From positions 1 through 32,248 of the forward strand of contig QCJX01000002.1 in NCBI GenBank assembly GCA_003215725.1: a stretch of 32,248 bases of DNA, written 5' to 3'. Of this stretch, positions 1 to 31,378 are shown in pieces. Positions within the stretch are counted from its first letter, which is position 1; the number at the start of each line of letters is the position of its first letter. The notes below the pieces were generated by a model, which made no database searches, was not told the origin of the DNA, and saw only the letters and a list, made by a program, of their open reading frames with translations. Position numbers and translations under genes: made by a program. This DNA is from Prochlorococcus sp. AG-409-I11. Its GTDB lineage: Bacteria; Cyanobacteriota; Cyanobacteriia; PCC-6307; Cyanobiaceae.

Positions 1-368
1 AGTTCAAAGGAGCAGGTCTTCTGTCTGCAGAGGCAATTCTTTCTTGGTCACTAGCAGGTATTGGCTGGATGGCAGTAGTTGCTGCTTTCTGGGCTTCAAC
101 AAATACCACTGTTTATCCAATTGATTGGTATGGAGAGCCATTGCAAATCAAATTTAGTATTGCTCCTTATTGGGTAGATACTGGAGATATTTCTGATTGC
201 ACTTCTTTCTTTGGTCACACGACTAGAGATGCCTTGGTAAATGTTCATTACGGCTTGGGTTTCTTTGCTTTGCAAGGTCATCTATGGCATGCCTTGCGTG
301 CAATGGGATTTGATTTCAAACGCTTGTGGAACAGAACTGGTCCATATGGCATTCCAAGAACTCTTTAA
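1..368 (+). CDS. pcb: Pcb chlorophyll a/b antenna protein, 3' end only
   Basis: This is the C-terminal part of a Pcb light-harvesting protein; its 5' end lies outside the window. The reading frame is open from base 3 to the TAA at 366-368. The visible part covers the last lumenal loop (FKGAGLLSAEA) and the last two membrane helices, including NTTVYP, PYWVDTGD, and the closing GHLWHALRAMGFDFKR. It is colinear with the two full-length pcb genes downstream (1613-2698 and 3081-4166). Pcb proteins are six-helix thylakoid proteins of the CP43/IsiA family that bind divinyl chlorophylls and feed photosystem I or II. Here one copy has NVHYGLGFFALQ where the other two have NVHYYLGFF. A terminator follows at 416-450. 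The identity is clear; which photosystem it serves cannot be told from this fragment. Confidence 0.95.
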   Translation, partial: FKGAGLLSAEAILSWSLAGIGWMAVVAAFWASTNTTVYPIDWYGEPLQIKFSIAPYWVDTGDISDCTSFFGHTTRDALVNVHYGLGFFALQGHLWHALRAMGFDFKRLWNRTGPYGIPRTL

Positions 369-575: not shown

Positions 576-625
576 AAGCAATAAAAAAAGCTCTGCATTG
601 CTTTGCAGAGCTTTTTTTATTGCTT
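576..625. terminator. Bidirectional terminator with 22-bp perfect arms
   Basis: Two perfectly complementary 22-base arms (576-597 and 604-625) enclose a 6-base loop. The core is GCTCTGCA/TGCAGAGC, bordered by a seven-A run on one side and a seven-T run on the other, so it can end transcripts from either strand. It sits between the convergent pcb gene (ends 368) and the small membrane-protein gene (ends 660). The upstream pcb already has its own hairpin, so its main client is probably the minus-strand gene. Confidence 0.9.
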
Positions 626-659: not shown

Positions 660-848
660 CTATCTGTCAGGTTTAGCCCATGGATCGATTCTTTTTGAAT
701 CGTCTGAATAATAAAGGAATTGAGATGCTCCAAAGAAAGCTCCTAGCCCACAAAGAGCAGGTATGAGAGCAAACCCTCCTGAAGGTTTGATTAAACCTAT
801 ATCGGATGGATGAGGGAGGGCAGCAAGAATGTGAGTGAAATCAATCAT
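660..848 (-). CDS. Small single-helix membrane protein with HPSD/KPSGGF motif (copy 1)
   Basis: This encodes a 62-residue protein that I cannot assign to a named family. It begins MIDFTHILAALPHPSDIGL, followed by KPSGGF, one hydrophobic helix (about residues 27-47), and a short polar tail rich in D, K and R. A clear paralogue lies at 9388-9573 in this window. The two share HPSD(I/L)GL(I/V)KPSGGF, a glycine-rich helix and SQF-Y near the helix end, which argues strongly that both are real genes. It converges on the first pcb gene with a bidirectional terminator between them. Its size and position among antenna genes suggest a thylakoid peptide, perhaps a small photosystem or antenna subunit, but that is inference. 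It does not match the PsaI, PsaJ, PsaK, PsaM, PsbK or Hli sequences I know. Confidence 0.85.
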   Translation of the reverse strand: MIDFTHILAALPHPSDIGLIKPSGGFALIPALCGLGAFFGASQFLYYSDDSKRIDPWAKPDR

Positions 849-1612
849 TGAGTTTTAGAGGGTGACAAGTGTTTTTATAAATAACCCAGGTGGCCACTGC
901 GCCATACCCGTGCCGAGTAATTTTACATCAGTTTTCAAAACCATAGTGACTGGAGATGAACCTTTAACTAGTAAGAGAGGTGTGGAAGATTTAATGCTTT
1001 GAACTGGGGATCGATCCACACTTTCGCTGAGAAGCTAGATTCCATCTATCTCCATTGAAATGGCAGGCGTTGGATTTATAGGACAGAACAGTTTTTTTGA
1101 GCTCTTATGCTCTGGATTAGCGGTTTCAAAATTTCAAGAGGATTTACTAATTAGTATGAATTTCTAGAGGCTCCTTTCAGAAGCAAAACAATTTGGAATG
1201 GAGTGGAAAAAAATTTGGAGACCTGTAAGTCAGATGAAGTCTGATGATTGTTCTAGAAGATTCAGAGTTTTTTAAATTAAATTTTTGGGTTTTTACGGAT
1301 GGAATTTATGATTCATAGAACATTTGAAAAATTAAAAATTTTATTGATCGTAATTGCCATGCTAGGAGGCTCACGAGAGAGAGGATGGTTTTGTTGATTT
1401 CCCAAAAGCAAGGTGCTGCAGTCATTTAGCATTAATTGAGTAGAGCTGAAATTCTCGTTTGCAAGAAAAAAAAATCCTTTTATGACCAAGTTTTGCCTAA
1501 ATCTAAGGAACTTAGAATTGCTTCCTAAATAAAGACCTTTAACTATTCTGCGCATATCAATTGAGCAGCTTGTAGTGTTCATATGGTTTTTTGCTTTTAT
1601 CCCTTAAGAATT
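849..1612. other. 764-base intergenic region between small-protein gene and pcb
   Basis: No convincing gene is visible. It must contain the promoters of the divergent minus-strand small-protein gene and of the pcb gene starting at 1613. Two very short plus-strand frames were seen: ATG at 1198 (25 codons) and a hydrophobic 32-codon frame beginning with the ATG in the TTTACGGATG string near 1295. Neither has a homologue in the window. That string recurs upstream of the next pcb gene near 2998. A long untranslated leader, an unrecognised small RNA or remnants of a decayed gene are all possible. Confidence 0.5.
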
Positions 1613-2698
1613 ATGCAGACCTATGGAAATCCAGACGTCACCTACGGGTGGTGGGCTGGTAATTCTGGGGTCACCAACCGCTCAGGCCGATTCATTGCTT
1701 CTCATGTAGGGCATACAGGATTGATTTGTTTCGCGGCTGGTGGAAGCACCCTTTGGGAGCTTGCACGCTTTGACCCTTCGCTACCAATGGGGCATCAGAG
1801 TTCGATCTTCCTTGCCCATTTGGCGTCTATAGGCATTGGATTTGACGAGGCTGGTGTCTGGACAGGGGCAGGTGTAGCTTCAATCGCCATTGTTCACCTG
1901 GTCTTCTCCATGGTTTATGGAGCTGGTGGCCTTTTACACGCAGTACTTTTTGAAGAAAAGGTTGAGGATTCAGAGGTTATCCAGGCCAAAAAATTTAAAC
2001 TGGAATGGAAAGACCCTGATAATCAGACCTTTATTCTTGGTCATCATTTGATCTTTTTTGGTGTTGCTTGTGTCTGGTTCGTTGAATGGGCCAGAATTCA
2101 CGGCATATATGACCCAGCAGTTGGAGCGATACGTCAGGTTAATTACAACCTCGACCTTTCAATGATCTGGCAACGTCAATTTGACTTTCTTGGTATAGAC
2201 AGTCTTGAAGATGTAATGGGAGGCCATGCCTTCTTGGCATTTGCCGAGATTACTGGTGGTGCTTTCCATATTATTGCCGGCTCTACTCCTTGGGAAAATA
2301 AGAGACTTGGTGAATACAGCAAATTCAAAGGTGCAGAATTGCTTTCTGCAGAAGCTGTACTTTCATGGTCTCTAGCTGGTATTGGCTGGATGGCTATTGT
2401 TGCTGCTTTCTGGTGCGCTACTAACACAACTGTTTATCCAGAGGCTTGGTATGGAGAGCCTCTCCAACTCAAGTTTGCAGTATCTCCTTACTGGGTAGAT
2501 ACAGGTGACCTTTCAGACAGCACTGCTTTCTGGGGCCATAGTACTCGTGCAGCTTTGTCAAATGTCCATTACTACCTTGGATTCTTCTTTATTCAAGGTC
2601 ACCTATGGCATGCACTTCGTGCAACTGGGTTCGATTTCAGCAAGGTTCGTAGTGCAATCGGAAACGATCAAAACGCTACTATTACTATCAACTCTTAA
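1613..2698 (+). CDS. pcb: Pcb chlorophyll a/b antenna protein
   Basis: This encodes a complete 361-residue six-helix antenna protein of the CP43/IsiA/Pcb family that binds divinyl chlorophyll a and b in the thylakoid membrane. The start is the ATG at 1613 (MQTYGNPDVTYGWW), the same first residues as the next pcb gene; the frame is open ten codons further upstream but this is not conserved. Family features are ASHVGHTGLI, WELARFDPS, GIGFDEAG, HHLIFFGVAC and the closing GHLWHALRATGFDF. Many histidines in the helices are placed as chlorophyll ligands. The large loop between helices 5 and 6 carries a GSTPWENKR segment that the following copy lacks. A terminator is at 2757-2788. Whether it is a photosystem I- or II-associated type is not settled here. 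Confidence 0.97.
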   Translation: MQTYGNPDVTYGWWAGNSGVTNRSGRFIASHVGHTGLICFAAGGSTLWELARFDPSLPMGHQSSIFLAHLASIGIGFDEAGVWTGAGVASIAIVHLVFSMVYGAGGLLHAVLFEEKVEDSEVIQAKKFKLEWKDPDNQTFILGHHLIFFGVACVWFVEWARIHGIYDPAVGAIRQVNYNLDLSMIWQRQFDFLGIDSLEDVMGGHAFLAFAEITGGAFHIIAGSTPWENKRLGEYSKFKGAELLSAEAVLSWSLAGIGWMAIVAAFWCATNTTVYPEAWYGEPLQLKFAVSPYWVDTGDLSDSTAFWGHSTRAALSNVHYYLGFFFIQGHLWHALRATGFDFSKVRSAIGNDQNATITINS

Positions 2699-3080: not shown

Positions 3081-4166
3081 ATGCAGACCTACGGAAATCC
3101 AGACGTCACCTATGGGTGGTGGGTTGGTAATTCTGTAGTGACCAACAAGTCAAGCCGATTCATTGGCTCACATGTTGCGCATACAGGATTAATTTGCCTA
3201 GCAGCTGGTGCAAACACCCTTTGGGAGCTGGCTCGCTACAACCCATCGATACCGATGGGACATCAAGGAATGGTTACTATTCCTCATTTAGCTTCTCTCG
3301 GCATTGGATTCGATGAAGCTGGTGTTTGGACAGGCGCAGGTGTTGCCACTATCGGTATTTTTCACTTGATCTTCTCCATGGTTTATGGAGGTGCAGGGCT
3401 ATTGCATTCTTTGTTCTTTAGTGAGGACACTCAAAATAGTTCTGGTGTATTTGCTGATGGCCGTCCAGAGCATCGTCAAGCAGCAAGGTACAAGTTGGAA
3501 TGGGATAACCCTGACAACCAAACTTTTATTCTTGGTCACCATTTAATTTTCTTTGGAGTTGCTTGCATCTGGTTCGTGGAATGGGCCAGGTGGCATGGAA
3601 TCTATGATCCAGCCCTAGGAGAGGTGCGAACAGTTTTTCCTGGATATGGAGATTTTGGAAGGATTTGGGGACATCAGTGGGACTTCCTTTCCATTGATAG
3701 CCTTGAAGAGGTAATGGAAGGACATGCCTTCTTAGCTTTCTTAGAGATTTCAGGCGGTGCATGGCACATTGCAACCAGGCAAATTGGGGAGTATGACAAA
3801 TTCAAAGGATCAGGCATCCTCTCAGCCGAGGCCATCCTTTCTTGGTCACTTGCTGGAGTTGGTTGGATGGGAATTATTGTTGCTTTCTGGTGTGCCCAAA
3901 ACACAACTGTTTACCCAGAAGCCTGGTATGGAGCTCCATTGGCCTTTAAATTTGGCATTTCTCCTTATTGGGTAGAAACAGTTGATATTGCTGATGCGAC
4001 TGCACCGTGGGGACATACTTCACGCGCATGGCTATCAAATGTTCATTACTATTTAGGATTCTTCCTGATTCAAGGTCACTTATGGCATGCATTGCGTGCT
4101 TTAGGCTTTGACTTTAAGAGGATTCCAAGAGCCCTTGTACGTTTAAGTGCATCATCTGCTACTTAA
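3081..4166 (+). CDS. pcb: Pcb chlorophyll a/b antenna protein
   Basis: This is the second complete pcb gene of the array, encoding 361 residues with six membrane helices. The ATG at 3081 (MQTYGNPDVTYGWWVGNS) matches the start of the gene at 1613; the frame is open further upstream but that extension is not shared. Compared with the neighbouring copy it has a longer loop after helix 2-3 (FFSEDTQNSSGVFADGRPEH) and a much shorter helix 5-6 loop (GGAWHIATRQIGEY, missing the STPWENK-like part). The two have therefore diverged in the regions facing partner complexes while keeping the helices. It ends with the conserved GHLWHALRALGFDFKR. It is followed by a different terminator at 4237-4269. The identity is certain; its partner photosystem and expression conditions are unknown. 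Confidence 0.97.
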   Translation: MQTYGNPDVTYGWWVGNSVVTNKSSRFIGSHVAHTGLICLAAGANTLWELARYNPSIPMGHQGMVTIPHLASLGIGFDEAGVWTGAGVATIGIFHLIFSMVYGGAGLLHSLFFSEDTQNSSGVFADGRPEHRQAARYKLEWDNPDNQTFILGHHLIFFGVACIWFVEWARWHGIYDPALGEVRTVFPGYGDFGRIWGHQWDFLSIDSLEEVMEGHAFLAFLEISGGAWHIATRQIGEYDKFKGSGILSAEAILSWSLAGVGWMGIIVAFWCAQNTTVYPEAWYGAPLAFKFGISPYWVETVDIADATAPWGHTSRAWLSNVHYYLGFFLIQGHLWHALRALGFDFKRIPRALVRLSASSAT

Positions 4167-9003: not shown

Positions 9004-9387
9004 TTGAGCTTTTCATTGTGACCTTTTGATATGGATTTAAGTAATTTCTCCCTTTTCAATTTCTCTTGGCACTAGCTGTTGGAATATTTTGTTTCTCTTC
9101 CAATAATGGTTACCTTCTTGAAGCCTAGGAAAGAGTTGATTCCTGACCCAATCAAAAGATTTTGGACTTCTTTGAATTGAAGGTCAGTAAAAAACGCGAT
9201 AAAAACAAGGTTTCAGTTACCTGAGGGCATTGAAATATCTCAAAAGTTTTTAGTTGTGAATAGAGGAAATTAGGCAAAAAACGGCGATTTTTCTGACATT
9301 TTTTATAGGCCCAGTTTTCAAGATGCAACAGAGTGTGTCTCGAACATGGGCTTGTGGGTTATAAATGTCGAGCTGAGCCATTTATTA
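9004..9387. other. 384-base gap upstream of the second HPSD/KPSGGF gene
   Basis: I see no supported gene. A 24-codon frame starts at about 9107 (MVTFLKPRKE) but has no other evidence. The promoter of the following gene probably lies near the TTTTTTATAGG string around 9300. An ATG at 9346 is in frame with the next gene, but its extra 14 residues are absent from the paralogue. Confidence 0.4.
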
Positions 9388-9573
9388 ATGATTCATTTTT
9401 TAACTCACCTCCTTACAACTCCCCCACATCCATCTGATTTGGGACTTGTTAAGCCTTCAGGCGGCTTCCAGCTTCTGCCAGTAATTTTCGGCCTTGTAGC
9501 CATCCTTCAAGTTTCCCAATTCCACTGGTATGCTCGGGATGAAAACGATCCAACCAAGCGTTTTCAGCGCTGA
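9388..9573 (+). CDS. Small single-helix membrane protein with HPSD/KPSGGF motif (copy 2)
   Basis: This encodes a 61-residue paralogue of the gene at 660-848. It begins MIHFLTHLLTTPPHPSDLGL, continues KPSGGF and a helix (LLPVIFGLVAILQV), and ends SQFHWYARDEN with a polar tail. Alignment with copy 1 (MIDFTHIL...) sets the start at 9388 rather than the ATG at 9346. It has its own strong terminator at 9598-9640, so it is a stand-alone transcript. Conservation of the segment before the helix (HPSD-GL-KPSGGF) is stronger than that of the helix itself, suggesting that this segment binds a partner or cofactor. The role is unknown; association with the photosynthetic membrane is an inference from small size and from copy 1 lying among the pcb genes. 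Confidence 0.85.
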   Translation: MIHFLTHLLTTPPHPSDLGLVKPSGGFQLLPVIFGLVAILQVSQFHWYARDENDPTKRFQR

Positions 9574-9597: not shown

Positions 9598-9640
9598 AAA
9601 AATGCTTAACCTGGTTAAAACCTGGTTAAGCATTTTTTTT
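9598..9640 (+). terminator. Rho-independent terminator of copy 2
   Basis: A 14-bp perfect stem (AAAAATGCTTAACC, 9598-9611, with its complement 9624-9637) encloses a 12-base loop and ends in eight Ts. The stem-loop also contains the direct repeat CCTGGTTAA. It lies 25 bases after the stop. Confidence 0.92.
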
Positions 9641-31318: not shown

Positions 31319-31378
31319 AAAAAGCCCGACCTCGTCGGGCAGTGTCGTGTGAGGAGTGTGTGGGCATGAAGCCCTCAC
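31319..31378 (-). ncRNA. yfr1: Yfr1 small RNA
   Basis: The minus strand gives an RNA of about 60 nt with the three-part Yfr1 architecture. A 5' hairpin has the stem GGGC/GCCC around TTCAT (31363-31375). An unpaired stretch with the conserved ACTCCTCACAC core lies at 31347-31357. A 3' terminator GCCCGAC/GTCGGGC (31324-31340) ends in five Us. Yfr1 is a cyanobacterial riboregulator found between guaB and trxA, and its single-stranded core is known to pair with porin (som) mRNAs. A TAGTAT -10 box precedes the start. The 5' end at 31378 is estimated from the box, not mapped. Confidence 0.93.

Follow-up and report, generated by a model that had tools for sequence, protein, structure and literature searches.

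Among described membrane proteins, the Pcb/IsiA (CP43-like) antenna proteins resemble the family reported here in their genomic blocks, in the lineages that carry them and in their presumed place in the membrane, and they differ from it in having six helices and approximately 350 aa, against one, rarely two, predicted helices and 47-106 aa in the family; no sequence similarity joins the two. The Hlips or SCPs, one-helix relatives of the light-harvesting complex (LHC) proteins, are likewise small, single-helix members of multigene sets with a possible chlorophyll ligand in the helix; the family, however, lacks the LHC motif, has the opposite light-niche distribution and is linked to pcb genes. 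The small photosystem subunits (PsaI/J/M/X and PsbI/J/K/L/M/T/X), together with PsaG-like antenna linkers, compare with it in size, in their single helix and in a possible docking role, but the family has no Pfam or PDB match, occurs as several paralogues per genome and is not found in cyanobacteria at large. The history of the antenna itself has been traced through 1,691 picocyanobacterial genomes, in which pcb copies rose in the LLVII grade and stayed high in the later LL clades, the expanded pcb set being lost in the HL ancestor (PMC11559063). Because the antenna counts published there rely on KEGG antenna orthologues plus isiA, small unannotated antenna partners would escape them. The Prochlorococcus small-membrane-protein family considered below is, as far as the literature searched can tell, undescribed and confined to low-light Prochlorococcus; no prior description of it was located, and since coverage of the Pcb papers was partial this is not proof.

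The window (the whole stretch of 32,248 nucleotides of Prochlorococcus sp. AG-409-I11 DNA that was analysed) contains two members of the family, copy 1 and copy 2 (Table 1). A preliminary description had taken these to be paralogues of 62 and 61 residues, each followed by a strong terminator of its own, and had placed copy 1 inside the pcb block. All of this holds: BLASTP aligns the two copies at 51 % identity (E 4e-20), a predicted hairpin of marked stability stands 3' of each gene, and copy 1 has a pcb gene on either side. The strand, on which that account was silent, is minus for copy 1. Copy 2 lies past the last pcb of the window, 5.2 kb from the nearest one. When copy 1 is set against its orthologue at locus L004, codon positions 1 and 2 together show six differences and position 3 shows 33 (dN approximately 0.05, dS approximately 2.4), and in many other orthologue pairs the silent sites are saturated. 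Since the differences between orthologues are concentrated at third codon positions, copies 1 and 2 are real, selected proteins under strong purifying selection.

Table 1. Features of the window that bear on the two family copies
Feature	Position	Strand	Details
pcb, 3' part (truncated at the start of the window)	3..368	plus	convergent (tail-to-tail) with copy 1
Terminator hairpin 3' of copy 1	577..624	minus	-33.1 kcal/mol, z -7.6
Family copy 1, subfamily A	660..848	minus	ORF, 62 aa, HPSDIGLIKPSGGF; one predicted TM helix, 28-48; tail SDDSKRIDPWAK
Upstream element of copy 1	874..930	minus	TGATGTAAAATT...CACGGGTATGGCGCAGTGGCCACCTGGGTTATTTATAAA; -10-like TATAAA at 874-879; core GTGGCCACCTGGGTTA at 882-897
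pcb	1613..2698	plus	divergent (head-to-head) with copy 1
pcb	3081..4166	plus	
Upstream element of copy 2	9315..9365	plus	TTTTCAAGATGCAACAGA (9315-9332), then GGGTTATAAATG; -10-like TATAAA at 9360-9365
Family copy 2, subfamily B	9388..9573	plus	ORF, 61 aa, tail HWYARDENDPTKRFQR
Terminator hairpin 3' of copy 2	9598..9637	plus	-20.6 kcal/mol, z -6.1

The two copies had been regarded as the whole of the family, which was too narrow a view, as a profile search shows low-light-type Prochlorococcus genomes to have 1-5 copies each, belonging to at least five types. Type A, that of copy 1, is marked by its tail and is represented by exactly one gene in each of the seven complete genomes in which the loci of the family were inspected; type B, that of copy 2, has the tail pattern HWYARD-NDP; type D resembles A and has a short tail; type C is without HPSD and reads TITVGGFNPLAA...QFIYYGLDANDPSKD; and type L, whose members exist both with and without HPSD, is about 90-106 aa long, has a second predicted helix and carries ...GWGLDSD-SLFSYRWKQF-GVQ...AGP-KIFFP. 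Two-helix members were noted at L059, L066, L130, L132, L137, L142 and L143, mostly remote from pcb; their second half (YRWKQF-GVQ...AGP-KIFFP) is very conserved, and several have an upstream element of their own, AGTTTGTAACGATCT.

Over the 123 sequences compared, conservation is broadest at G24, G25, F26 (or L), G34, Q43, F44 and Y47, with H13, S15 and D16 likewise strongly kept. The claim that the motif before the helix is better conserved than the helix itself survives for copies 1 and 2 and their close kin and fails for the family as a whole, in which HPSD...KPSG is missing from two subfamilies and GGF, G34 and QF-x-x-Y are kept most widely. HPSD-GL-KPSGGF does precede the helix, as had been said; SQF-(Y/W)Y, which had been placed after it, is instead (as SQF-x-YY) the C-terminal end of helix 28-48. 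For copy 1, AlphaFold predicts that single helix, with a pLDDT of approximately 95 for residues 31-40 and a pTM of only 0.38, and for a long form it predicts two helices at low confidence (pTM 0.27). Position 43 is occupied in the family proper by Q (108 sequences), N (five) or H (one), A being seen only in four distant relatives of high-light type. Each of Gln, Asn and His is known to serve as an axial ligand of chlorophyll, which makes it plausible that the helix end carries a pigment, with Q43 as its putative ligand; this is not shown, the basis being a few substitutions and no pigment data.

Neither single sequences nor profiles gave a significant match in Pfam, NCBIfam or the PDB, and a search of PHROGs likewise gave nothing significant; annotated phages and viral contigs yielded no relative. 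The matches to an LHC antenna complex (E 4.9), to PsbX (E 1.2, for the high-light relative) and to a PHROG (E 0.044) are noise. Identity with a known small subunit of photosystem I or II is rejected, there being no match to a curated family or solved chain and no spread across cyanobacteria; so is membership of the Hlip or chlorophyll a/b-binding (LHC) proteins, as ExxNxR is absent from the aligned members and Pfam gives no match. Many high-light-type genomes encode a 41-aa protein, MNYFSSFAIGGFVPSAAIAGVLVLVGLGAFFYLGIKGPTDY, found at L098-L103 (e.g. L102:1480-1605) between glycerate-kinase-like and uppP-like genes, which matches the profile of the family core weakly (E 2e-4 to 9e-3). Like the family it has GGF at the helix start and a comparable spacing to F-x-Y; unlike the family it is without HPSD, has Ala for Q43 and is not near pcb. 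It is possibly the last remnant of the family, or it is unrelated, and homology is uncertain. A candidate of LLIV type (MIPSAAILGVLGILGFAFFFWLAVNDPADA, L128), 1.2 kb from a pcb, is too weak to claim (E 0.08). Other small one-helix proteins, with a GGF-x-P-x-AA start (e.g. MNLLASFSLGGFNPYAAAVGVLSLVLFALVGLVAGPNLSKFDKDA), were seen at L121, L126 and L132:3262-3483; they have no Pfam match.

Co-occurrence with pcb was assessed in a sample of 400 genomes of the Prochlorococcus-containing family, the 251 that are at least 90 % complete being used for the counts. Small-protein profile counts were set against counts of full-length pcb, from which IsiA was excluded by an E-value limit and for which at most five pcb candidates per genome were scored. 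The small proteins occur in all 32 near-complete genomes with an expanded pcb set (E <= 1.4e-12) and in 0 of the remaining 219, that is, in none of 68 high-light-type genomes (genus g18, 1.4-1.8 Mb, 1-2 pcb), neither of two LLIV-type genomes (g30, 2.4-2.6 Mb, two pcb) and none of 149 genomes without pcb. Genus g18 presumably includes MED4, MIT9301, MIT9515 and MIT9215, and the HL and LLIV labels for g18 and g30 are inferred, partly from pcb number. One of the 32 carriers (G195), assembled in 40 contigs and from a genus that is otherwise expanded, shows just two full-length pcb, and two incomplete genomes with 3-4 pcb, G041 (65 %) and G307 (77 %), gave no match to the family. A class-level cyanobacterial sample gave matches in Prochlorococcus-type genomes only, and a direct test of 22 further cyanobacterial genomes, among them ones with 3-5 Pcb/IsiA-type genes, gave none with the same profile that does recover matches in the Prochlorococcus-containing family. 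Presence of pcb alone is thus insufficient, as high-light- and LLIV-type genomes and other cyanobacteria with multiple Pcb/IsiA genes are without the family.

The presence of the family shows the same two turning points as the published pcb expansion (PMC11559063). This evidence from co-occurrence is strong, yet because all carriers are Prochlorococcus it comes down to about a single gain and a single loss and lacks the weight of many independent events. The preliminary description had called for a test of co-occurrence with pcb and of absence from phycobilisome-only strains, and had named two findings that would refute a Pcb-associated role, namely presence independent of pcb and a match to a photosystem subunit already known. 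The counts bear out the link to pcb, and neither refuting result was met: in near-complete genomes presence follows the pcb expansion exactly, and Pfam, NCBIfam and the PDB contain no such match.

Association with pcb extends to gene order. Of the 32 copies in ten complete genomes, 22 are no more than 500 bp from a pcb and 23 no more than 1 kb, against a chance expectation of 0.35 copies within 1 kb, and most of the pcb-remote copies are long forms. A pcb lies within 1.5 kb of 78 copies at the named loci L004-L059 and in the window; at that distance the upstream pcb neighbours are divergent in 70 of 70 cases and the downstream ones convergent in 64 of 66. Related strains do not contribute independent loci; the antiparallel pattern nevertheless recurs across genera. 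One of the genomes, G010, is taken here to be that of SS120. PMC2644788 gives RefSeq numbers for PcbA-H, and the eight pcb positions of G010 can be matched to these in the order in which they occur, close numbers falling where the genes lie close. With the genes so assigned, all five family copies of this genome flank PcbD, PcbB, PcbH and PcbE, and none stands at PcbC or PcbG. These last two are PSI-type Pcbs, and it is mainly because the SS120 copies flank D, B, H and E and not C or G that the antenna served is inferred to be, probably, the PSII-type Pcb. A preference for one pcb clade is rejected, as the pcb tree puts the family-flanking pcb genes in several LL types.

The family genes are preceded by blocks that keep a fixed distance to the start codon and end in a -10-like TATAAA or CTATAAC box. 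The block upstream of copy 1 recurs before subfamily-A genes in other genomes, and a genome-wide scan of nine genomes found matches to the A element with 0-1 mismatch only before subfamily-A genes; a similar scan of seven genomes found perfect matches to the B element only before family genes. These scans covered the A and B elements only, not L or C. The consensus is TGATGTAAAATC...CACGGGT-TGGC--AGTGGCCACCTGGGTTA(T)-TATAAA for the A type, TTTTCAAGATGCAACAGA...GGGTTATAAATA for the B type, which also stands before some A genes, AGTTTGTAACGATCT...TATTAATA for the L type and TTTTTCAACATGCAACGAGAT for the C type. On sequence evidence, these blocks are DNA elements and not coding sequence, because the reading frame across them differs between genomes. 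No motif shared between family and pcb promoters was found, the scanned A and B elements being private to the family, and because these match only at family genes, with none seen at pcb, the family proteins seem to have expression control of their own. A further block, which reads GGAATAGTTAAAGGTCTTTATTT on the strand of the family gene, is found repeatedly in the spacer between family and pcb genes, for example at 1530-1560 of the window; it may be part of the pcb promoter.

The best explanation, held with a little more confidence than doubt, is that the family supplies the expanded Pcb antenna, probably that of PSII type, with single-helix (rarely two-helix) proteins that act as accessory subunits or as assembly or docking factors. 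It builds on what is observed, namely that the family exists and is under purifying selection, that among near-complete genomes it is found exactly where the pcb set is expanded, that its genes are linked head-to-head with pcb and that conserved elements precede them. The helix would insert beside Pcb subunits; the pre-helix HPSD-GL-KPSGGF would pack at the membrane surface, where one Pcb subunit meets the next or where Pcb meets the photosystem core; and the side-chain amide of Q43 (in QF-x-YY, near the helix end) may ligate or hydrogen-bond a divinyl-chlorophyll at the Pcb interface. That the proteins sit in the thylakoid, touch Pcb, bind pigment and serve the PSII side is inferred, without protein-level data. 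The earlier suggestion of subunits or assembly factors tied to Pcb is accordingly upheld in its link to pcb, by co-occurrence and by linkage across low-light lineages, and remains an inference as to function. Counted against this explanation are the copies not adjacent to pcb (two-helix forms and copy 2), the lack of a family match in G041 and G307 (both < 80 % complete) despite at least three pcb each, and the low pTM of the AlphaFold models. A bolder form of it, possible but doubtful, holds that LL-specific single-helix chlorophyll-binding linkers join PSII-type Pcb variants into larger arrays, their gain having enabled the LLVII expansion and their loss having accompanied the origin of HL.

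Other roles would account for part of the evidence. The proteins may be Hlip-like single-helix pigment carriers or photoprotective proteins that hold chlorophyll or carotenoid during Pcb synthesis or repair and are not structural, as their size, single helix, several copies per genome, candidate chlorophyll-ligand residue and, for each copy, conserved promoter-like element and terminator would allow; this is unlikely, given that the Hlip motif ExxNxR and any Pfam match are lacking and that the family belongs to large-antenna low-light genomes and is missing from high-light ones, the reverse of what photoprotection would lead one to expect. Less credible again is that they belong, as lineage-specific small subunits, to the PSI or PSII core, or to a PSI-Pcb ring rather than a PSII-Pcb antenna, with no photosystem chain in the PDB matching even by profile and the SS120 copies standing away from PcbC and PcbG; what speaks for it is that constitutive PSI-Pcb rings fit the strain distribution as well as the expansion of PSII-type Pcb does, LL strains such as SS120 making constitutive PcbG18-PSI rings and MIT9313 making them only under iron stress (PMC8635728). 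Ranked last is a role that stems from genomic position alone, be it an unrelated membrane protein in a pcb duplication hot spot or antiparallel transcription that tunes the adjacent pcb. The strict antiparallel, head-to-head layout speaks for such a role, as does the fact that family copies change in number along with the pcb array, but selection acts at the protein level, many genomes keep unlinked copies and long forms, strong terminators in the window would end family transcripts before the pcb frames, and the conserved elements are kept even far from pcb, as at copy 2.

Since the family tracks the pcb expansion, lies head-to-head with pcb and has its own conserved upstream elements, its members form a concrete list of candidates for missing parts of the light-harvesting apparatus of low-light Prochlorococcus, searchable in the proteomes of SS120, MIT9211 and NATL and in future cryo-EM maps of Pcb-photosystem complexes. 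Elsewhere in the window, the Yfr1 small RNA (Rfam RF01116, E 1.9e-9) lies at 31321-31378 on the minus strand, between a thioredoxin gene and a guaB-like gene.
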